This document shows positions 37,784 to 53,755 of a DNA stretch of 64,000 nt, piece by piece. The DNA comes from Myxococcus sp. RHSTA-1-4 (GTDB taxonomy: Bacteria > Myxococcota > Myxococcia > Myxococcales > Myxococcaceae): NCBI RefSeq assembly GCF_020037125.1, contig NZ_JAIQDG010000026.1, forward strand, positions 62,001 through 126,000, read 5' to 3'. The position numbers and the translations under genes were made by a program. Numbering within the stretch: the stretch's first letter is position 1; each line of letters starts with the position of its first letter. The notes under the pieces are model-generated. The model was not told the origin of the DNA and made no database searches. It saw nothing but the letters and a program-made list of their open reading frames with translations.

Positions 37784-40129
37784 CTACCTCCTCCGCCTCC
37801 TCACCGCGGCCGCGAGTCCGGCGAGCAGGGCCCAGGCCCCCGCCACGTTCGCGGGAGACGCGCCGCACCCGCAGCCCACGTCGAGCGCCGCGGGGCCGCG
37901 CACCTCGAAGCCGGTGGCCTCGGAGCGGGGCCCCGCCGTCCCCGTGGCGCTGACGAGCGCGTACGCCGTGACGCTGTGGGCTCCCACCGCCAGCGCCTGC
38001 GCGGAGGGCACCGGATGCCGGAAGGCGCCCGTCCCGTCAGCGGTCACCCGGGCCACCTCCGCGCCATCCACCTCGATGGACACGGAGGCCCCGGGCGCGG
38101 CGACGCCGGCGAACAGCGGCGTGGAGTCCACGACCTCGCCCTCGGCGGGCACCACCAGCACCGGAACCTCGAAAGTCCCCCCGTCCGCGCCCGGGGTGCC
38201 CGAGTCCGGCCCACCCGTGCCCGCATCCCGCGTTCCGGCGTCCCCGTCCACCGACTCGAAGCGGGTGGTCGGCGAATACGGCCCGGTGGCGCCCGCCTCG
38301 TTGTGCGCGTGGAGGACGACGAAGTGCGGGCCCGGCGGCAGAGGGTTGTCGGCGGATACCTGGTAGCGGAAGCGGCCGAACGCATCCACGGGGACGGTGA
38401 TTTCCGCCCCGTTGTCCACCTCGATGCCCACCGTCACGCCGTGGGGTGCCACGCCCGCGAACAGCGGCGTGGGGCCGACGACGTCGCCCTCCGCGGGCAC
38501 CACGAGGATGGGCGGCTCCACCACGCCACCATCCGCCACCGTGACGACCACGTTGAACGCCACCTCCGCGGAACGCAGGCTGTAGGCGCCCAGGGAATCC
38601 GCCACGACCGCCACCCGGTGCTCGCCCGCGGGCAGGGGCTCGCGCAGCGCGGGGTAGTTCGCGGTGAACACGCCGTCCGCGGCGGAGGAGACCTGGATGA
38701 CCTCCACGCCATCCACGTACACGATGACGCGCAGGCCCGGGTCCGTCACTCCCTCGAAGCGGGGGCGGGATGGCACGCCCACCGCACCCGCCGCCGGAGT
38801 GGTGACCACGGGTGTCGTCGGCCGGCGGTAGGCGACCATGAGCTCCTTGCCGATGCCCACCCCACCATCCGCCGCGCCGTAGGTGGAGCCGTCGAACGCC
38901 GTCTGCCCAGCGGGCCCACCCGCCACGATGGCCGGGCAGTTCAACGCCGTGCCCTGCACGAGCGTGTAGCCGCCCCCGCCTCCGCCGCCCGGGCCCAGCG
39001 GGACGCTCGCCTCGCTCACGCGGCCACCACCGCCACCAGTCGCCATCACGGCGCCGCAGCTGGCCTGCCCGGCCACGCGCAGGATGACGGCGCCACCCGC
39101 GCCTCCGCCCCCCGCGCCGTCGTGCCCCGACGTGACGGCGGCCCCCTGGCCATTGGCCATGTAGACGCCCGTGCCGCTCAGCACTCCCGCGCGGATGAGT
39201 ACCACGCCACCGCCCGCCCCACCGCTGGAGCCTGCGTCGTCGTTCCCCTCGCCGGCGCCACCGCCACCGCCGAAGAGGAACTGGTCCAGGAGGGAGTAGC
39301 TCATGAATGCGCCCCCGAGCCCGCCCTCGTCCCTGGGGGGGGAGCTCCCGGTGCGACCGCCGAGCCCTCCCACGCCTCCGTGTCCGCCCCCGCCGCCTCC
39401 CGAGTTGCTGCAGTTGCCGCCACCGCCACCGTTGACCAGGTTGCCGCGCCCGGAGGCCGTGCCGAAACGGCTCACCACCACGCCCTCGCCCTTGAAGGAG
39501 CCTCCCTGCTCGGGCGTCAGGTCCAGCCCGGTGCAGAGCTGGAGGCTGGCGTGGTTGGCGAAGACGCCCCCTCGGAAGCCCGCGCCGTCCGCGGAGATGA
39601 GGCCCCCGTTCGTCACCGTGCCCGTGGCGAGGAAGGCGAGGATGCCGCCACTGCGGCCATCCCACGGCGGCGCCACGAGCGAGCCGGTGGGGGCGACGTC
39701 GACGTTGGTGAACTCGGGCACGAGGACGGCCTGCGCGCCCGGCACGGTGTAGCTGTTCACCAGGGGCGCGGTGAGGCGCACCTCGGGCGGCTCGGCGCTC
39801 ACCGACTCCACGCGGGCCAGCTCCCAGCGCCCCACCGCTCCCGGGGCGACGGAGGTCGTGCCGCCGGACGGCGTGGTGGCCGGAACGCCGATGCTCTGGT
39901 GGATGAGCACCAACGCACCGACGACCTGATTGGTGGTGCTCTGCAGCTGCAGCACGGTGCTCCCGGCCGGAGCGCTGGCCACCAGCGGTCCGTGCGGGTT
40001 GATGACCCGGCCCAGCGTCGACACGGTGAGGGCACCGTCGCGGCCCGTCCCCTGTCCGAAGGAGTCCAGCTCCGCCAGCGCGGGGGCCGCCGTGAGGAGT
40101 ACGAGCACGAAGAGGGGGACGAAGCGCAT
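37784..40129 (-). CDS. Secreted Gly-rich and Ig-repeat protein with MYXO-CTERM-like tail (AgmC-like)
   Basis: A 781-residue secreted protein. Signal peptide MRFVPLFVLVLLTAAPALA. The N-terminal half (about 20-470) is a beta-helix-like Gly/Ala/Ser-rich region with many GGGGGG runs. Then come about four Ig-like domains with repeated starts (PVVTTPAAGAVGVPSRPRF; PILVVPAEGDVVGPTPLFAGV; PVLVVPAEGEVVDSTPLFAGV). The end LDVGCGCGASPANVAGAWALL plus a Arg-run is a MYXO-CTERM-like sorting tail (Cys motif, helix, basic end). This layout matches proteins annotated as adventurous-motility AgmC in myxobacteria; I have not verified the link. ATG 40129 opens the signal peptide. Probably surface-bound. Confidence 0.8.
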   Translation of the reverse strand: MRFVPLFVLVLLTAAPALAELDSFGQGTGRDGALTVSTLGRVINPHGPLVASAPAGSTVLQLQSTTNQVVGALVLIHQSIGVPATTPSGGTTSVAPGAVGRWELARVESVSAEPPEVRLTAPLVNSYTVPGAQAVLVPEFTNVDVAPTGSLVAPPWDGRSGGILAFLATGTVTNGGLISADGAGFRGGVFANHASLQLCTGLDLTPEQGGSFKGEGVVVSRFGTASGRGNLVNGGGGGNCSNSGGGGGGHGGVGGLGGRTGSSPPRDEGGLGGAFMSYSLLDQFLFGGGGGAGEGNDDAGSSGGAGGGVVLIRAGVLSGTGVYMANGQGAAVTSGHDGAGGGGAGGAVILRVAGQASCGAVMATGGGGGRVSEASVPLGPGGGGGGGYTLVQGTALNCPAIVAGGPAGQTAFDGSTYGAADGGVGIGKELMVAYRRPTTPVVTTPAAGAVGVPSRPRFEGVTDPGLRVIVYVDGVEVIQVSSAADGVFTANYPALREPLPAGEHRVAVVADSLGAYSLRSAEVAFNVVVTVADGGVVEPPILVVPAEGDVVGPTPLFAGVAPHGVTVGIEVDNGAEITVPVDAFGRFRYQVSADNPLPPGPHFVVLHAHNEAGATGPYSPTTRFESVDGDAGTRDAGTGGPDSGTPGADGGTFEVPVLVVPAEGEVVDSTPLFAGVAAPGASVSIEVDGAEVARVTADGTGAFRHPVPSAQALAVGAHSVTAYALVSATGTAGPRSEATGFEVRGPAALDVGCGCGASPANVAGAWALLAGLAAAVRRRRR

Positions 40130-40200
40130 GGGGCCCCATGGTGCCCCAGAACTCCGGCGCGTGGGAGGCCGGGGGCGCCGGAGCGGACCGGCCCGGGCCG

Positions 40201-40479
40201 TCAGGGGAGCTGGCCCACCTCCAGTTCGCAGGTGGGCGCGCCCTGGTGCATGCACCGGCGCTCCCGCGCCACCACGTCCTGGCCCAGGTGCCGCGCCAGC
40301 CCGCGGATGGTGCCAAGACCCAGGCCACACAGCTTCCCGGGCGAGCAGCAGGACACCCGCACCAGGTCCCGCTGGACGCGCTGGCAGACCCGCCCCGCCA
40401 GTGGACGCGAAACCGTCCACCGCGCCTGCCCCCACCCTCCAGGGGGATTGCCCCGGAGCGGAGGGCGTCCGCTGAACAT
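40201..40479 (-). CDS. Small protein like the C-terminal part of a V4R/haem-NO-binding domain
   Basis: A 92-residue protein. Its ATG (40479-40477) overlaps the stop of the upstream gene as TGATG, so it is translationally coupled. Residues about 30-92 read LVRVSCCSPGKLCGLGLG, TIRGLARHLGQDVVARERRC and MHQGAPTCELEV, the pattern of the last strand-helix-strand of V4R or HNOB domains (G.L.GL....G, then C...G...C.F.V). A whole V4R domain is about 180 residues, so this is either a mini-protein or a truncated gene. The first 28 residues are Pro/Gly-rich. The codon-level overlap argues that it is used. Confidence 0.6.
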   Translation of the reverse strand: MFSGRPPLRGNPPGGWGQARWTVSRPLAGRVCQRVQRDLVRVSCCSPGKLCGLGLGTIRGLARHLGQDVVARERRCMHQGAPTCELEVGQLP

Positions 40480-40976
40480 CACCTGCCGCCGGAAGGCGTG
40501 AGCGCGCGGACGTTGCGGGGGGCGAAGAAGGGCTGGCGCAGCAGGCGCGGCAGGGTGCGCTTGTCCACGCACCAGAGCTGGAGCGCGTCCTCCCACTCGC
40601 CGAGCTCGGCCACCGCGCGCACGTCGGGCGCGTCGCGGTAGAGGCTGTTGAGGTTGTGGACGAGCGCGGAGAGGTCCTCCACCTCCCAGCGCTCGGAGAC
40701 GTCGCCGGCCAGCACGTGCAGCTCCAGCACGGGGCGCTCACGCACGTCCACCACCTTGAAGCGGCGGGCCGGGCCGCCCATGGCGGTGGTGAGGGGGCCC
40801 ACCAGCTCGTCGGGGCGCACGCCGTACCCCACGGAGAGGCCTCCCTCCAGCAGCCCCGCGTCGCACAGGCGCAGCAGTGACACGTGCGGGGGCTCACCAC
40901 GACGCACCACCTCGGCGGCGGCGTCGCGGTCCTTGAGGAGTCGCTCCTGGGTGAGGGTGTCGAGCAGGGAGGCCAT
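40479..40976 (-). CDS. Protein of unknown function, 165 residues
   Basis: I do not recognise this soluble protein. It starts MASLLDTLTQERLLKDRDAA, with LCDAGLLEGGLSVGYGVRP, a beta-hairpin like ARRFKVVDVRERPVLELHVL, and a C-terminal helix EWEDALQLWCVDKRTLPRLL. There is no signal peptide or membrane helix. Its stop overlaps the ATG of the V4R-like mini-gene by one base (TGATG), so the products are made together and probably interact. No ribosome site is evident before ATG 40976. Confidence 0.65.
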   Translation of the reverse strand: MASLLDTLTQERLLKDRDAAAEVVRRGEPPHVSLLRLCDAGLLEGGLSVGYGVRPDELVGPLTTAMGGPARRFKVVDVRERPVLELHVLAGDVSERWEVEDLSALVHNLNSLYRDAPDVRAVAELGEWEDALQLWCVDKRTLPRLLRQPFFAPRNVRALTPSGGR

Positions 40977-45956: not shown

Positions 45957-46000
45957 CCGGGCCCCACCCAGGTGGCGAGTGCCACCCGAGCAGGGCCCGG
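45957..46000. terminator. Two-part terminator between convergent genes
   Basis: An 8-bp outer stem, CCGGGCCC with GGGCCCGG, encloses a perfect 6-bp hairpin GGTGGC-GAGT-GCCACC. It lies between the HTH-citrate synthase gene and the end of the cohesin-like gene. Confidence 0.65.
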
Positions 46001-46048: not shown

Positions 46049-49000
46049 CTACCGCTGAGCGGTCTGCTGGAAGCCAGGGTCGGCGGTAATCTCCAGGCGG
46101 CCGATGCCGAAGTCGTTGCTGCCGACCACGTCATCGCCCAGCTTGTTCCGGAGCAGGCCCTTGAAGCGGCTGCCCAGGCTGGCACCGTCGAACACCACGC
46201 CCGGCTCGGCGCCCGGAGCCAGCTCGAGGGTGAGCTGATACAGGACGCTGCCCGTGGGAATGGCGGTGTCCGCCGCCACCGAGCCCGAGCCGCCGGCCTT
46301 CTGGCTGATACCGCTGGTCAGCACCCCTGCCAGCGGGCCGGAAGCCGGCAGCGCCACCGCGGCGGCCGGCACCGAGGCGCCCGCCGACAGGATGGCACCC
46401 GCCGTCAGCGCCCCCGCCGTGGGCAGCCGCACCTTCGTGGCGTCCAGCGGGAGGTTGAAGCCCACGCCGTAGCCGCTCAGGTCCTCGGCCGCCACCACGT
46501 CCAGCACCAGCCGCGTGGCCGTGGAGGACGGGTTGCGCATCACCCGGATGCGGCCGGCCGCCGGGTCCGTGTACGCCAGCGTCGCGCCGTACACGTCGAA
46601 CGCGGCGGACTCGGCGCCCACCAGCGGGCCCGAGGACGCCGCCAGGGTGTAGCCCTGGCCGTTACGGTCCACCGTCAGGTCACCGAAGCGCGCCACGCCG
46701 GCCTGCGCGGCCACCTGCACCGTGCCGCCGAGCACCGCGCCGTTCGCGTTGCCCAGCGCCAGGGCAACCTCGCTGGCCGACGTCGCCGTGTTGCCGAACG
46801 CGTCCACCAGACGCACCGCCACCTCGTTCAGCGGCAGCCCGTTGGGCGTCGAGCGCGGCTGCGCGGCGAACTCCAGGCGGGTGGGCTCCGCGCCGATGAT
46901 GGCGAACGGAGCGCTCGTCGCCGGGGTCAGCCCCGTCTGGCTGGCCTTCAGCGTGTAGCCCCGGCCGGCCTTCTCCAGCACCAGGTCCGCGAAGGTCGCC
47001 ACGCCATTCGACACCGGCTGCGTCAGCGTGCCGCGCAGCGTGTCGCCACCCGGGTTGGCGCCCAGGGACAGCGTCACGTTCCCGCTGCCGCTCGTCGCGT
47101 TGCCGAAGCGGTCCGTCACCTGCACCTGGACCGCCGGGCCAATCGCCGAGCCCGCCTGCGTCTCCGCCGCCACCGGGCGGAACGCCATGGCCGACGCCGC
47201 GGCGGCGGTGATGTTCACCGCCCGCGAGTAGCCGACGTACAGCTCGGTGAAGGCCGCGTTGTAGCCCACGAACACGAGCTGCGTCGCGCCCACCTTGTCC
47301 AGGGCCAGCCCCTCGAAGGTGACCACGCCGTTGACGGCCGCCACCTCGCGCGCGCCCGCCACCACCGAGGCGCCCGCCGGGTTGGCGTCGGGGTCCACCG
47401 CGACGGCCACCAGCTCACCGTAGCTCGGCACCAGGTTGCCGAACGCGTCCCGAGCCTCCACGGTGATGGTGCCCAGGGACTCACCGGCCACCGCCGTCTC
47501 GGGCGGCTCCGTCGCCACCACCAGCGTGTCGACGCCAGCGGGGGCGATGTTGAACGTGTTGCTCGTCACCTCGGAGAGCCCGTCGGAGGTAGCGCGCAGC
47601 GAGTACCCGCTGCCCGCCTTCTCCAGCCGCAGCGCGCCGAAGGTGGCCACGCCCGCGTCGGCCGACACCGTCAGCGTGCCCAGCAGCGTGCCGTTGGCCG
47701 GGTTGGCCGCCAGCGCCACCGTGACGCTCGCCGTGGAGGCCGTCTGGTTGTCGAACGCGTCCAGGATGGACACGCGCACCCCCGGAGTCAGGGCCACGCC
47801 CGCCGTGCCGTTGGCCGGCTGCTGCGAGATGACCAGCTTCGCCGCGGATGCCGCCGAGATGTCGAACGTGTTGCTCGTCACCTCGGTGAGCCCGTCGGAG
47901 GTGGCGCGCAGCGAGTACCCGCTGCCCGCCTTCTCCAGCCGCAGGGTGTCGAAGGTGGCCACGCCCGCGTCAGCCGACACCGTCAGCGTGCCCAGCAGCG
48001 TGCCGTTGGCCGGGTTGGCCGCCAGCGCCACCGTGACGCTCGCCGTGGAGGCCGTCTGGTTGTCGAACGCGTCCAGGATGGACACGCGCACCCCCGGAGC
48101 CAGGGCCACGCCCGCCGTGCCGTTGGCCGGCTGCTGTGAGACGGCCAGCTTCGCCGCGTCCGCCGCGGAGATGGAGAACGCGCTGCTCGTCGCCTCGGTG
48201 AGCCCGTCGGAGGTGGCGCGCAGCGTGTAGTCCGCCGCCGCCTTCCGGAGGTGGACCGCGGAGAAGCGAGCCACGCCCGCCGCCGCGGCCTCCTCCACGT
48301 CACCCCCCAGCGTATCGCCGCCCGGGTTGGCGCCCAGCGCCAGCGTGATGGTGGCGGTGGAGTCCGCCATGTTGCCGTACGCGTCGTGCACCTCGACCTC
48401 GAAGGCCGCCAGGTCCTGCCCCGCGATACCGTTCGCGGGCTGGGTGCGGAAGGCCAGCGCCGCCGCGGACGCCGCGGCGATGTCGAACGTGTTGCTCGTC
48501 ACCTCGGTGAGCCCGTCGGAGGTAGCGCGCAGCGAGTACCCGCTGCCCGCCTTCTCCAGCCGCAGCGCGCCGAAGGTGGCCACGCCCGCGTCGGCCGACA
48601 CCGTCAGCGTGCCCAGCAGCGTGCCGTTGGCCGGGTTGGCCGCCAGCGCCACCGTGACGCTCGCCGTGGAGGCCGTCTGGTTGTCGAACGCATCCAGGAT
48701 GGACACGCGCATCCCCGGGTTCAGGGCCACGCCCGCCGTGCCGTTGGCCGGCTGCTGCGAGATGACCAGCTTCGCCGCGTCCGCCGCGGAGATGGAGAAC
48801 GCGCTGCTCGTCGCCTCCGCCAGCGAGCCCGAGCTGGCACGCAGCGTGTAGCCCGCACCGGCCCGCTGGACGTTGACCGCGGAGAAGCGGGCAACGCCAT
48901 TCTCGGCCGCCACGGTGGTGGTGCCGTTCAGCACCACGCCCGCGCCGCCTTGCAGCGCCAGCGTCACCTGCTCCGTGGAGGGCACCGTGTTGCCGAACGC

Positions 49001-50470
49001 GTCACGGATGGTGACCTCGACGGCCGGGGCCAGCGCCGCGCCCGCGGTGCCGTTGGCCGGCTGCGCGGTGAAGGCCAGCGCCGCCGCCGCCGCGGGGGCG
49101 ATGTCGAACGTGCCGCTCGTCGCGGACTCCAGCAACCCCGACGTGGCCCGGAGGGTGTACCCCTGGGCCGCCACGTTGATGGACAGGTTGGCGAACGTCG
49201 CCACGCCACCCTCCGCGGACACCGAGGCCGTACCGTTGAGCGTCGCGCTGCCCGGGTTGGCGTCGAGCGCCACCGCCACCGTCGCGTTGGAGGCGGTCCG
49301 GTTGCCGTAGGTGTCCAGCAGCTCCACCTGCACCGCCGGGCTGAAGGCCACGCCCGCGGTGGCCGCGCCGGGCGCCGCCACGTAGGCCAGCCGCGCCGCC
49401 GCCGCCGGGGTGATGGCGAACGCCGACGAGTCCGCCGCCGTCAGGGAGCCGAAGCTGGCGCGCAGCGTGTAGCCCGCGCCCGCCTTCTGGACGCTCAGCG
49501 CGTCGAAGGTGGCCACGCCGTTGGCCACCGCCACCGAGGCCGTCCCCGCCAGCGTGGCGCCGTTGCCGGACACCAGCTCCACGGTGACGTTTCCCTGGGC
49601 GCGCTTCGCCACACGGCCATGCGAGTCCAGCACCGTCACCCGCACCGGCGCCAGGGTGGCACCCGCCACCGCGGACTCCGCCGGCTGCGTGGTGAAGCTC
49701 AGGCTGGCCGGCTGGCCGGGACGCACGGTGAACGGAGCGGACTTCACCACGGGCAGCGAGCCCGAGGAGAAGGCCAGCACGTAGCCCGTGCCATCCTCGT
49801 CGACGGTCAGCTCATTGAAGGTGGCCACGCCATTCACCGCCTCCGCGGTGGTGTTGCCGCCCAGCGTGGCTCCCGTGGCGCCGCCCTCGAGCGCCACCGT
49901 CACGGTGGCCGCGTCGTCCGCGGTGTTGCCGAAGGCATCCTGCACGTTGATGACCACCGGGGAGAGCACCGTATGCACGTCCACGTCCGTGGGGCCGGTG
50001 GTGAGCGCCATGCGAGCCGGAGCGGCCGCGCGCACGGAGAACGCCGAGCTGCTCGCGGTCTGCGTGCCGACCTGGGCCGACAGCTTCATGTTGGCGCCGA
50101 CCTTCGCCACGGTGAGGTCGGTGAAGCGGGCCACGCCGTAGAGGAGCGCGGTCCGGGTGGAGCCCCCGAGCCGTGCGTCGGCGGGGGCATCCGTCAGCGT
50201 GAGCTGCACCGTCCCGCCGCGCTCGACGACGACGTTGCCGTTGGCGTCGACGAGGGCCACTTCGACGGCCCCGAGCCGCTCACCCGCCCGGACCGAGCCG
50301 GGCTGGGTGCGGAAGACCAGGGTGGCCTCCGCGGGCTGGGGCTTGGGGTCGTCACCGCACGCGGTGGCGAACAGCGCCGCGAGCAGCGTGAGACCGACAG
50401 CAATTCGCTGGGTCACGATGTTGCGCTCCATGAGGAACGAATGAGGGGAAGAGGACGCGCGCATGTTCAC
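46049..50470 (-). CDS. Large Ig-repeat lipoprotein with cohesin-like C-terminal domain
   Basis: A 1473-residue predicted lipoprotein. The start GTG 50470 overlaps the upstream stop (GTGA) and has GGAGG 6 nt before it; ATG 50431 is an alternative. The signal peptide ends LLAALFATACGDD. Then come about twelve Ig-like repeats of roughly 100 residues, each with FxTQPxxxxAG..L..V.V...D..GN and GVATF..L...K.G.GYTLRA. The final domain (about 1310-1465) has TRLVLDVVAAEDLSGYGVGF, TGSVLYQLTLELAPGAEPGVV and FGIGRLEI, resembling a cohesin. The partner gene upstream ends in dockerin-like repeats. Probably an outer-membrane scaffold. Confidence 0.78.
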   Translation of the reverse strand: MNMRASSSPHSFLMERNIVTQRIAVGLTLLAALFATACGDDPKPQPAEATLVFRTQPGSVRAGERLGAVEVALVDANGNVVVERGGTVQLTLTDAPADARLGGSTRTALLYGVARFTDLTVAKVGANMKLSAQVGTQTASSSAFSVRAAAPARMALTTGPTDVDVHTVLSPVVINVQDAFGNTADDAATVTVALEGGATGATLGGNTTAEAVNGVATFNELTVDEDGTGYVLAFSSGSLPVVKSAPFTVRPGQPASLSFTTQPAESAVAGATLAPVRVTVLDSHGRVAKRAQGNVTVELVSGNGATLAGTASVAVANGVATFDALSVQKAGAGYTLRASFGSLTAADSSAFAITPAAAARLAYVAAPGAATAGVAFSPAVQVELLDTYGNRTASNATVAVALDANPGSATLNGTASVSAEGGVATFANLSINVAAQGYTLRATSGLLESATSGTFDIAPAAAAALAFTAQPANGTAGAALAPAVEVTIRDAFGNTVPSTEQVTLALQGGAGVVLNGTTTVAAENGVARFSAVNVQRAGAGYTLRASSGSLAEATSSAFSISAADAAKLVISQQPANGTAGVALNPGMRVSILDAFDNQTASTASVTVALAANPANGTLLGTLTVSADAGVATFGALRLEKAGSGYSLRATSDGLTEVTSNTFDIAAASAAALAFRTQPANGIAGQDLAAFEVEVHDAYGNMADSTATITLALGANPGGDTLGGDVEEAAAAGVARFSAVHLRKAAADYTLRATSDGLTEATSSAFSISAADAAKLAVSQQPANGTAGVALAPGVRVSILDAFDNQTASTASVTVALAANPANGTLLGTLTVSADAGVATFDTLRLEKAGSGYSLRATSDGLTEVTSNTFDISAASAAKLVISQQPANGTAGVALTPGVRVSILDAFDNQTASTASVTVALAANPANGTLLGTLTVSADAGVATFGALRLEKAGSGYSLRATSDGLSEVTSNTFNIAPAGVDTLVVATEPPETAVAGESLGTITVEARDAFGNLVPSYGELVAVAVDPDANPAGASVVAGAREVAAVNGVVTFEGLALDKVGATQLVFVGYNAAFTELYVGYSRAVNITAAAASAMAFRPVAAETQAGSAIGPAVQVQVTDRFGNATSGSGNVTLSLGANPGGDTLRGTLTQPVSNGVATFADLVLEKAGRGYTLKASQTGLTPATSAPFAIIGAEPTRLEFAAQPRSTPNGLPLNEVAVRLVDAFGNTATSASEVALALGNANGAVLGGTVQVAAQAGVARFGDLTVDRNGQGYTLAASSGPLVGAESAAFDVYGATLAYTDPAAGRIRVMRNPSSTATRLVLDVVAAEDLSGYGVGFNLPLDATKVRLPTAGALTAGAILSAGASVPAAAVALPASGPLAGVLTSGISQKAGGSGSVAADTAIPTGSVLYQLTLELAPGAEPGVVFDGASLGSRFKGLLRNKLGDDVVGSNDFGIGRLEITADPGFQQTAQR
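47552..48753 (-). repeat. Three nearly identical 269-bp repeats
   Basis: Copies at 47552-47820, 47864-48132 and 48485-48753 differ at only a handful of bases and align without gaps. Each encodes one Ig-like repeat with the identical core ILDAFDNQTASTASVTVALA. Other repeats of the same gene are far more diverged, so these three were copied or homogenised recently. Confidence 0.85.
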
Positions 50471-53400
50471 GGCCGCCCTCCGTAACGGGTCAGGAGCTGC
50501 GCCAGGTCGTCGTCATCCACCGCGTTCACGGGGCCCACGAGGTCCTGGTTCCAGTCGTAGTAGGGCTTCTCCGCCGTCGCCGGGGTGGTGCCCAGGCGGT
50601 TGGCCGTGGACAGCAGGTCCACGAAGTCGAGCTGCCCGTTGCGGTCATAGTCGCCGTTGCCGGCCACGCCGCGCTCGGCGGTGGCGGACGGGTAGATTTC
50701 CCACATGCCGCGGCCGAAGGTGGCGACACGCAGCAGGCCACCGGTGCGGCCCACGAACATGTCCGTCACCCGCACCAGCGGCAGGCCCACGCCGTAGCGC
50801 TCCCAGGTGGCACCCTGGTTGGTGCTCCGGTAGACGCCCAGGTCCGTGCCGGCGAACAGCGTCTGGTTGGTGTCGTCGGACGGGTCGAAGCGCACCACGT
50901 TGACGGGCACGTTCGGCAGGTTGCTGGAGATGTTCTGCCACGTCTGGCCGCGGTTGGTCGTGAGGTACACGCGGCCGAGGCCCGGCGGCAGGACGGAGGC
51001 CAGCGCCGCGCTGGACACCACGAACATGTCGCCCGGGTTGATGCCGGTGTGGTTCGGCGGGAAGTCGATGCTGCTGGTGAAGGTGGGCGTCTCGTTGGAG
51101 TCGATGGTGCCGCTGCCGTTGAGGTCCGTGCCCATGCGGTTGGTCACCGTCCACGCGCACTGCGAGGCCGGCGTGTCCAGCGTGCAGCCGGACATCACGC
51201 GGAAGCGCCCGCCGCTGCCGGCGATGCCGTACAGGCCGTCCACGGTGGAGGACACGCCCAGCGCGCGCACGGCGACGGAGTAGTCGCACGCGCCCAGGAG
51301 CTGCCACTGGCGGCGGTCCGTGCTGGTCGGCGTCCCAATCAGGCGGAACACGCCATAGGTGGTGCCGGTGATGGCCGCCGGACGGTTGCCGGTGTTGACG
51401 GCCATGACCTTGGTGAGGAACGTGGTGGTGTCACCGGAGGCGCAACCGCCCGAGGCCGCGGTGGTGGGAGGCACCAGCGTCCGCCACGTCCCGCCCACGC
51501 CCTGGTTGCAGCCACGGTTCGCCGGGACGTCCGGGTCGCAGTAGCGGGTGGAGCTGTACTGCACCGAGCCCCAGTAGATGCTGTCCTCGCCCACGCGGGA
51601 CGCGGCCACGCCGATACCGTCGCCGCCGATGACCTGGTTGAAGGTGGTGGGGGCGCCCTCGGTGTCGCGGAAGCGCGTGCCGTTGTCCTGGAGGCCCGCG
51701 AACGCGATGAACTGGTTGCCCGTGGCCGGGTCACCCGACGCGACGTTGTACATCAGGTGCGTCGCCAGGCCTCGGTTGGGGAAGCGCCACTGCACCGTCT
51801 CCTGGTTGATGGGCCCCGGCTCGAACACGTTGGTGGACGTGAACAGACCACCGTCGCAGCCCACCATCGTCATGTAGCCGGTGGGCGTGCGCACCACGAG
51901 CGTGCGGTGCCAGTCGGCATGCACGTACGGCAGCACGCCGTCGGACGTCAGCGCGGACTCCGAGTAGGCGGGCAGCCAGTGCGACACCACCTCCCAGGTG
52001 GGCTGGTCCGCCAGGCCGTTGACGGTGCGCAGGCCGCAGAGCGTACCGCCGAGGATGACGCGGTTCTCGTCCCCCGGGTCCACCGCGATGGTGGAGTTGT
52101 ACCAGGCCTGGGCGTTGTGGACGTTGACGCTGACGCACTGAGAGGTGTCCAGGAACGTCATGTTGCGCGGCGTGCCGTCGCCCTGGCCGCCGGACACGTC
52201 CTGCCACGTATTGCCCGCGTCGGTGGAGCGCCAGATGCCGGCGCCGGTGGACACATCGCTGCGCAGGCTGGTGAGCGCGTACAGCACCGTCCGGGTCGGG
52301 TCCTCCGGCGGCGAGCCCGCCGCGAGGGAGATGCGGCCGACGTCCGTGGGGGTGGCCGCGTCGTTGTCGTAGTCCGGCAGCCCGTTGACGGCCAGGCGCG
52401 AGGTCCAGGTCTGGCCCGCGTCCGTGCTCACCCAGATGTCACCCTGGAGGGAGGTGGAGGCGGTGGGCGAGGCCGCCGTGGGGGTGGCGTAGTTCGTGCC
52501 GCTGATGGCCCAGCGGCTCTGGCCGTTCACCTGGCCGGTATAGGCGATGGTCCACACCTGCTCCGGCACCTGCGTGCCCACGTTGGGCAGGTCCACGAGC
52601 TGGAAGGAGGCGCCCGAGTCGGCGGAGCGGAAGAGGCCCACCTCGGTGCCCACGAGGATGATGTTCGGCGCGCTCGGGTCCACCTTGATGGCGCGCACGC
52701 GCAGCGCCTGCACGGCGCGGTTGCCCACGCTGGCGGGATACGTGCCGGCCAGCGCCACCGGCGCCTCCCAGCTCCCACCGCCGTTGGTGGTCTTCACCAC
52801 CTGGCCACCGACCGCGTCCACGAAGTCACCCAGGCCCAGGTACAGCGTGTCCGGGTTCTGGGGGTCCATGGCCATGTCGCCCACGGCCATGTTGCCCAGC
52901 ATCTCCCCGACCGGGTGCCAGGTGGGGTCCGGCGAGAGCAGGTCGAACGTCTTCCACACGCCGCCACCGGAGGTGGAGAGGTAGGCGATGTTCTGGTCCT
53001 TCGGGTGCACGGCCATGCCACTGATGCGGCCGGAGTCCACCTGCAGGTAGGGCCTGCCGTTGAACTGGAAGCGCGCGTCGGTGGGGCCCAGGTTCACCCA
53101 GGAGTTGGCGTCCGTGCCCAGGCCCTTGTTGATGGCGGCCTGGCCGGGAGCCCGGGGCATCAGGTGCGGCCAGCGCTGGGACTCGGCGCGGGCCTCGTCC
53201 AGCAGGATGGCGGAGTCCTCCGCCGTGGGCACGCCCCAGTGGGCCTTGTGCGCCATCCACCGGGAGAACGCGTCATCGATTTCGCGCTCGACGTAGGTGT
53301 TCTCGAACAGCTCCTCCTCGACGGCGGCATGGAGCTGGGGGGGCACGTCCTCGCCGGGCTGCTGCATGAAGTCCTCGAAGCGCAGGCGGCGCTGCTCCTC

Positions 53401-53499
53401 GGCCCACACGCGGTAGGCACGAACGGAAGCAGGCGCGGCCAACGACAGGACACCAGCACCAACAGCCAGGGAGACGACGACTCGTCTTCGCAGGTGCAA
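50467..53499 (-). CDS. Sortilin/BNR-like propeller protein with C-terminal dockerin-like repeats
   Basis: A 1010-residue secreted protein. The best start is TTG 53499 with GGAG 8 nt upstream, which opens on the signal peptide LHLRRRVVVSLAVGAGVLSL. The body is a sortilin/BNR-type beta propeller with repeated Asp-box-like turns (STDAGQTW, STDAGNTW, TNRGQTW, TNQGATW). Asp-box propellers bind or hydrolyse glycans. The last 65 residues hold two calcium-loop repeats: GDYDRNGQLDFVDLLSTANRL and YYDWNQDLVGPVNAVDDDDL, the dockerin type (D.D.NG..D..D). The stop overlaps the GTG of the cohesin-like gene. A secreted, surface-anchored complex is inferred. Confidence 0.8.
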   Translation of the reverse strand: MHLRRRVVVSLAVGAGVLSLAAPASVRAYRVWAEEQRRLRFEDFMQQPGEDVPPQLHAAVEEELFENTYVEREIDDAFSRWMAHKAHWGVPTAEDSAILLDEARAESQRWPHLMPRAPGQAAINKGLGTDANSWVNLGPTDARFQFNGRPYLQVDSGRISGMAVHPKDQNIAYLSTSGGGVWKTFDLLSPDPTWHPVGEMLGNMAVGDMAMDPQNPDTLYLGLGDFVDAVGGQVVKTTNGGGSWEAPVALAGTYPASVGNRAVQALRVRAIKVDPSAPNIILVGTEVGLFRSADSGASFQLVDLPNVGTQVPEQVWTIAYTGQVNGQSRWAISGTNYATPTAASPTASTSLQGDIWVSTDAGQTWTSRLAVNGLPDYDNDAATPTDVGRISLAAGSPPEDPTRTVLYALTSLRSDVSTGAGIWRSTDAGNTWQDVSGGQGDGTPRNMTFLDTSQCVSVNVHNAQAWYNSTIAVDPGDENRVILGGTLCGLRTVNGLADQPTWEVVSHWLPAYSESALTSDGVLPYVHADWHRTLVVRTPTGYMTMVGCDGGLFTSTNVFEPGPINQETVQWRFPNRGLATHLMYNVASGDPATGNQFIAFAGLQDNGTRFRDTEGAPTTFNQVIGGDGIGVAASRVGEDSIYWGSVQYSSTRYCDPDVPANRGCNQGVGGTWRTLVPPTTAASGGCASGDTTTFLTKVMAVNTGNRPAAITGTTYGVFRLIGTPTSTDRRQWQLLGACDYSVAVRALGVSSTVDGLYGIAGSGGRFRVMSGCTLDTPASQCAWTVTNRMGTDLNGSGTIDSNETPTFTSSIDFPPNHTGINPGDMFVVSSAALASVLPPGLGRVYLTTNRGQTWQNISSNLPNVPVNVVRFDPSDDTNQTLFAGTDLGVYRSTNQGATWERYGVGLPLVRVTDMFVGRTGGLLRVATFGRGMWEIYPSATAERGVAGNGDYDRNGQLDFVDLLSTANRLGTTPATAEKPYYDWNQDLVGPVNAVDDDDLAQLLTRYGGRP

Positions 53500-53755
53500 G
53501 CGGGTTTCTCCAGAGACTGGGTTACGGGAAGTGCGCGGGGGGATGGGTACGAAGGGTAGTGGTAGACTCACCCCTAGAGTCAAATCGCGGATACTCCGAC
53601 TGGCTGGCGAATAAGCGAATTGACAGACTTACCCGTCCCGCCGCGGGCGCTCTTGACGGGAGGCTGGCGGAGCCGCTCGGGGTGCTGTCACCTGCCGGGC
53701 ACCGCGCGCACTCGGACGTTGGAGGCGGAGCCAGGGCCGGGGAGACTCCGGCGCC

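Follow-up and report, generated by a model that had tools for sequence, protein, structure and literature searches.

A propeller protein and a stalked lipoprotein at one locus

The DNA analyzed here (the window) is a stretch of 64,000 nucleotides from Myxococcus sp. RHSTA-1-4 (contig NZ_JAIQDG010000026.1, positions 62,001 to 126,000), and our subject is a pair of adjoining genes in it that we read as encoding a cargo protein, P0002, and the surface receptor onto which it would dock, P0001. The genes lie at 50467..53499 and 46049..50470, respectively, both on the minus strand, exactly where a first-pass annotation of this DNA had placed them, and all other window features with coordinates below are on the same strand. 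The stop/start overlap described there is borne out, with the TGA of P0002 and the GTG of P0001 overlapping by two bases in a GTGA (50467..50470) within the junction CCGTGAACATG. P0001 also has an in-frame ATG two codons inside its GTG start, and the P0002 start at 53499 is a choice, since its reading frame is open as far as a TTG at 53583. The overlap of the two genes would favor matched amounts of the two proteins.

P0002 (1,010 residues) is an Asp-box (BNR/VPS10-like) propeller protein with a dockerin-like C-terminal domain, as assigned from Pfam, NCBIfam, and its relatives. Its N terminus is hydrophobic and signal peptide-like by eye, and the protein is probably secreted. The β-propeller region spans residues ∼130 to 940 (50680..53112, boundaries approximate, drawn from Pfam and NCBIfam stretches and homology) and is matched by PF15902 above the cut-off (E value of 3.1e-11), with BNR repeats under the cut-off in Pfam. 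We did not accept an enzyme call from the NCBIfam model “F510_1955 glycosylhydrolase,” which at 72.5 bits fell well short of its cut-off (175), and the NCBIfam matches MrtC and choice_anch_C were far under cut-off. For the propeller, we can only guess at a role such as binding a ligand in surface adhesion or sensing.

The last 62 residues of P0002 (949 to 1010; 50470..50655) form the dockerin-like domain and hold the two calcium-loop-like repeats reported in the first-pass annotation (...GDYDRNGQLDFVDLL...YYDWNQDLVGPVNAVDDDDLAQLLTRYGGRP). The Pfam dockerin model PF00404 covers residues 949 to 995 at a score under its cut-off, with an E value of 0.19 within the whole of P0002 and of 0.0027 when the tail is scanned alone (18.3 bits; cut-off, 22.9). 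Among 20 tails of the family, aligned without the frame-shifted L059 from a set of 21, 16 match PF00404 at E values up to 10, that of the window included, with a best value of 1e-5. Loop 1 (DYDRNGQLDFVD, 50617..50652) has Asp at positions 1, 9, and 12 in all 20 tails and Asp or Asn at positions 3 and 5, again in all 20. Loop 2 (DWNQDLVGPVNAVD, 50515..50556) is two residues longer than the canonical loop and degenerate; its five chosen ligand positions are kept in 15 to 18 of the same 20 tails, and the relative L060 has a regular loop, SDTNSDGNLDDTDL, at this place. A profile of the 20 tails searched against the PDB gave a cellulosomal chain, 2y3n_B (71 residues), as the best match (E value of 3.8e-4), the remaining matches being dockerins mixed with ordinary EF-hand proteins. 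Single-sequence AlphaFold2 placed a helix after each loop, but at a predicted local distance difference test (pLDDT) score of 50, too poor for a fold search. The claim of a dockerin-type tail on the propeller is supported by these family matches, though the window's own tail is under the cut-off, and, judged by its sequence, the tail appears to be a degenerate dockerin.

P0001 (1,473 residues) had been described as a repeat-stalk lipoprotein, and two features agree with this, a lipobox (ATAC) with its cysteine at Cys38 (50357..50359) and a PF18565 β-sandwich domain in the stalk above the cut-off (43.3 bits), with Big_5 under it. By the same pattern test, run with our own script, 47 of 58 open reading frames (ORFs) carrying the C-terminal domain (CTD) discussed below have a lipobox, the window's and 46 more, and some of the 11 without one begin at contig starts. 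The mature N terminus would read CGDDPKPQP. According to the excerpted text of PMC3222651, Lys at position +2 directs Myxococcus xanthus lipoproteins to the inner membrane and Ala at +7 to the matrix. The start CGDDPKP fits neither rule, which by default leaves the outer membrane; supposing that the rules carry over to this organism, P0001 is probably a lipoprotein of the outer membrane.

Between lipobox and CTD, the stalk (46622..50356) measures 1,246 residues, or 12.0 units of 104 residues, the unit being a measure of length and not the result of aligning the repeats individually. Stalk lengths among the CTD ORFs range from 0.1 units (genome G141) to 18.1 and come close to whole numbers in the majority of the relatives nearest to the window, though not in all (4.5 at L046, for example). 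With such variable length and a constant domain at the end, the stalk has the look of a spacer whose reach can be adjusted while its tip stays fixed.

The tip itself, the CTD (residues ∼1284 to 1473; 46052..46621), is the candidate dockerin receptor on the evidence of a 55-member alignment (A3) and of co-occurrence; the pieces at L164 and L165 and a second copy in L143 were left out of that alignment. In P0001, it contains TRLVLDVVAAEDLSGYGVGF...TGSVLYQLTLELAPG near the C terminus. The domain stands at the C-terminal end in 57 of the 58 ORFs, and each chain carries one significant match to it, where a scaffoldin would carry several cohesins.

Pairing of dockerin and CTD across the order

All counts given here are lower bounds, as the genome searches scored a part of their first-look candidates, at most 23 or 41 in each genome. 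In 145 genomes of the order, the dockerin profile found 53 matches, 49 of which have a CTD on the same strand within 8 kb. The CTD gene lies downstream of the dockerin gene in 48 of these 49 pairs; the sole pair with the CTD gene upstream is at L054 (G030:C27). Twenty-one of the 53 loci were already known when the profiles were built, and outside these, 28 of 32 are paired. Of the four unpaired matches, two come where the contig stops, and after one of these a truncated lipoprotein start follows; the other two, in G140 and G160, belong to different proteins that are M1-peptidase-like by eye. Counted by genome, both domains are found in 31, the CTD only in 15, the dockerin only in 2, and neither in 97 (n = 145; Fisher p of 5e-18, relatedness not corrected). 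Because both domains recur together at other loci, their link is more than chance, and this recurrent pairing (49/53) strengthens the proposal, made in the first-pass annotation, of a surface complex formed by two proteins, in which the partners would bind each other.

The pairing follows the dockerin and not the propeller. At the ten propeller loci without a dockerin match (L021, L022, L063 to L069, and L071), a CTD neighbor was found in none, L067 and L071 being little informative as they reach contig ends. The 55-member CTD profile matched in 46 of 195 genomes of the phylum, every one of them in the order to which the window belongs, and had no match on plasmids.

A second class of cargo emerged from the CTD matches without a neighbor detected by the dockerin profile, which number 24. 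Fifteen of them adjoin an ORF for an M4 metallopeptidase with a dockerin-like tail (by eye), four more stand in tandem arrays with M4 genes in G141, and five are without partner. In the G141 arrays (L153 and L154), the receptor lipoprotein is nearly stalkless and has a proline-rich linker instead, and in another lipoprotein of this class that was scanned, L156, the stalk shows Big_2 repeats. The dockerin profile detects some of the M4-class tails, those of G141 not among them. Six genomes hold 61 M4 matches, of which 8 are beside a CTD and the other 53 have none within 20 kb (coordinates compared by eye); a dockerin-like tail was seen by eye in 7 of these 8 proteins, the eighth being cut by a contig end. 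To compare the propeller class with the second class, we took five lipoproteins of the latter along with four of its M4 proteins. The window's CTD matched the five M4-class CTDs with E values of 9.6e-12 to 3.6e-5 and its dockerin matched the four M4-class tails weakly (3.5e-4 to 0.12), whereas stalks and cargo bodies gave E values no better than 0.03. The CTDs and, weakly, the dockerins are therefore alike where stalks and cargo bodies are not, and plug and socket are common to both kinds of operon. We had considered FibA as the M4 cargo and dropped it, because FibA, a matrix protease, is a lipoprotein according to the excerpted text of PMC3222651 and the starts of the proteins at L155 and L156 show a signal sequence without the cysteine.

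The first-pass annotation had also called the complex private. This holds insofar as most cargoes have a receptor gene to themselves; it does not hold in the sense of a system limited to this organism, given the CTD in 46 of 195 genomes of the phylum and the second cargo class.

In the window, the pair is set apart from its neighbors, which we named by reading: upstream, at a distance of ∼640 bases, a YchF-like gene, and downstream a citrate-synthase-like gene that is convergent with the pair. The stop of P0001 is followed, after ∼50 bases, by a terminator-like hairpin of 20 pairs with TTTT behind it (45957..46000); the window has two sites of hairpin and T-run, these being two registers of the one hairpin, and the mean in shuffled sequence is 2.0. 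Elsewhere in the window, the ORF at 37784-40900 ends in GCGCGASPANVAGAWALLAGLAAAVRRRRR, which resembles a sorting tail of the MYXO-CTERM kind.

Likeness to known cohesin-dockerin systems

One close parallel is the cellulosome, in which cohesin (PF00963) binds dockerin (PF00404). As there (excerpts of PMC9012536), a dockerin-type calcium-loop tail sits on the cargo and its candidate receptor on a separate, surface-attached modular protein. Unlike cellulosomes, the pairs described here have one receptor domain per stalk, come as gene pairs, and are anchored by a lipoprotein; plant-wall enzymes are missing from them, and the receptor is undetectable as a cohesin.

Cohesin and dockerin modules are also known outside cellulosomes, in archaea and bacteria (PMC9012536, in the portion citing Peer et al. 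2009), and the same excerpts describe a use outside cellulose degradation and a proposed surface attachment, both of which resemble what we propose. Those modules are found by standard domain libraries as described there, whereas the CTD family matches none of the libraries searched and adjoins its cargo gene.

A further case stands at L098 (3738-8362), in another order of the phylum, where a gene for a PF00963 cohesin (29.2 bits) adjoins two dockerin-bearing genes. We count this locus in favor of a docking pair, as here, too, genes for a cohesin and for dockerins adjoin each other within the phylum. It differs in that a TIG domain precedes the cohesin, itself an ordinary PF00963 domain, and that the one cargo protein scanned, an M1 peptidase, scores 22.2 bits with PF00404, just under the cut-off. 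A further likeness is offered by TMEM132, a surface protein in which a cohesin homologue is joined to tandem immunoglobulin (BIG) domains; this is an animal protein, however, with the cohesin placed before the BIG domains, and the excerpted text of PMC6030884, on which this comparison draws, has no dockerin homologue detectable in vertebrates.

PF00963 cohesins were also seen in other settings. At L095 (1297-5343) and L096 (1468-4596), large ORFs end in such a cohesin (44 and 40 bits) and adjoin genes that by eye are pilus- or type II secretion-like, and at L099 (2719-5901) and L100 (4003-6075), a cohesin is followed by a dockerin-like repeat in a single chain.

A proposed docking pair and its alternatives

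We propose that P0001 is a surface receptor dedicated to P0002 as its cargo, the two forming an operon-encoded docking pair that is nearly one-to-one across the order, and we put the probability of this at about 0.74. P0002 would be exported with the dockerin as a calcium-loop plug at its C terminus, and P0001 would be lipidated and project a stalk of variable length, probably from the outer membrane. At the tip of the stalk, on the outer surface, the CTD would serve as a socket for the plug on the product of the adjoining gene, in a binding that may depend on calcium, and as a rule a cargo gene has a single receptor gene; in relatives, M4 metallopeptidases would be held by this socket and plug. 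By means of such a pair, cells or vesicles would retain on their surface a secreted protein that would otherwise be lost to the medium. The link to vesicles is a guess; peptidases and lipoproteins are listed in vesicles in the excerpts of PMC4158809, which do not have “dockerin” among them.

Several observations weigh against this proposal. Loop 2 of the dockerin is degenerate in the propeller class. At L146, two dockerin genes share the sole CTD seen on a short contig, so that the pairing is not strictly one-to-one. Five CTD matches, in G147, G066, and G065, are partnerless; two are at contig starts, one runs into a transposase-like frame, and two overlap and represent one unpaired copy in G065 that is not at a contig end. 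In the window's own genome (G000:C45), dockerins occur without a CTD nearby, and the presence of a dockerin therefore does not imply a CTD. Finally, searches for a cohesin among the CTDs were negative: PF00963 matched 0 of 19 and 0 of 55 members of the family, and the CTD profile matched no cohesin, and no sequence at all, in the PDB.

Two of these loci merit description. The CTD running into a transposase-like frame (by eye) is at L164 (G065:C213, 2171-4165). The dockerins of the window's own genome form a second cluster at L084 (G000:C45:138000-157000), comprising a trypsin and a subtilase (PF00404 at 26.8 and 23.0 bits) and two VWA proteins with tails similar by eye, all four ending in NYGxGC. 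Interleaved with them are two lipoprotein-like ORFs that resemble each other; they have no Pfam match and no CTD, and they might be the receptors of that cluster's dockerins.

The first-pass annotation had likened the CTD to a cohesin, and by these searches it is not recognizable as one. The family had one weak match of a single member to PF00404 (E value of 0.081), scattered single-member matches in NCBIfam and nothing more there, and the window's genome has no PF00963 match at E values up to 10. Single-sequence AlphaFold2 of the CTD gave a pLDDT of 40, too low for use of the fold. Nevertheless, the CTD may be a true, very divergent cohesin, making the pair a noncellulosomal cohesin-dockerin system of an established kind, which concerns its origin and leaves the mechanism unchanged. 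PF00963 exceeds its cut-off in 6 of the 195 genomes of the phylum, and when the all-CTD model was run on the 5,458 ORFs of the collected loci, the best nonmember, setting aside a frame-shifted CTD piece in L143, was one of these real cohesins, L098 7355-8362 (E value of 0.03; the alignment covers the first part of the cohesin domain). In the propeller-class model, however, the same cohesin came only fifth among nonmembers (0.97), in the M4-class model its E value was 110, and the other five cohesins over the cut-off were not found by the CTD models. We also aligned the CTD family by hhalign with the six cohesins of the phylum and then with those plus five stretches from the PDB. The score of 15.2 over 138 columns was above 99 of 100 column shuffles, but the probability was <1% and an immunoglobulin (Ig)-repeat profile reached 14.9 against the CTD, nearly the same. 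These two hints of kinship are weak, and a divergent cohesin seems to us somewhat short of an even bet. Our preferred reading of the CTD is a dockerin receptor of a kind not described before, which may be a remote cohesin. The more far-reaching view, that it is a receptor of independent, noncohesin origin, a new socket for a calcium plug that is confined to a single bacterial order (probably the myxobacteria) and serves as a modular anchor by which propellers and M4 metallopeptidases are loaded onto lipid-anchored stalks of adjustable length, with one receptor gene per cargo, on cells or vesicles, is tentative, and we find it rather doubtful.

Two further explanations were considered. The proteins may be coexpressed members of one pathway, the CTD binding another lipoprotein, a glycan, or peptidoglycan and the tail serving as a calcium-stabilized end or a secretion signal. 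The degenerate loop 2 and the further dockerin proteins of the genome without a CTD neighbor would suit this explanation as well, yet the CTD tracks the dockerin and not the type of cargo, both between propellers with and without the tail and between propellers and M4 peptidases, and we consider it unlikely. Alternatively, the CTD lipoprotein could help to process or export the cargo, as a chaperone or foldase would, and not anchor it permanently. The nearly stalkless forms beside M4 peptidases (ORFs of 239 and 258 residues at L153) resemble such small dedicated helpers, but stalks of up to 18 units would suit reach beyond the membrane and not a periplasmic role, and we take such a helper for the least probable of these explanations.

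New here are a receptor family unrecognized by the libraries searched, its regular pairing with a neighboring cargo gene, the lipoprotein stalks, and the two cargo classes; among the matches listed from the open-licence literature, none describes such pairs in myxobacteria. With 55 CTDs, most of them with a neighboring dockerin, specificity, calcium control, and a cohesin origin can be put to the test, and the CTD and dockerin would offer a new plug and socket for protein display. For the bacteria themselves, an encoded plug and socket of this type could explain how certain proteins of this group, proteases among them, remain at the surface of the cell or vesicle after secretion.

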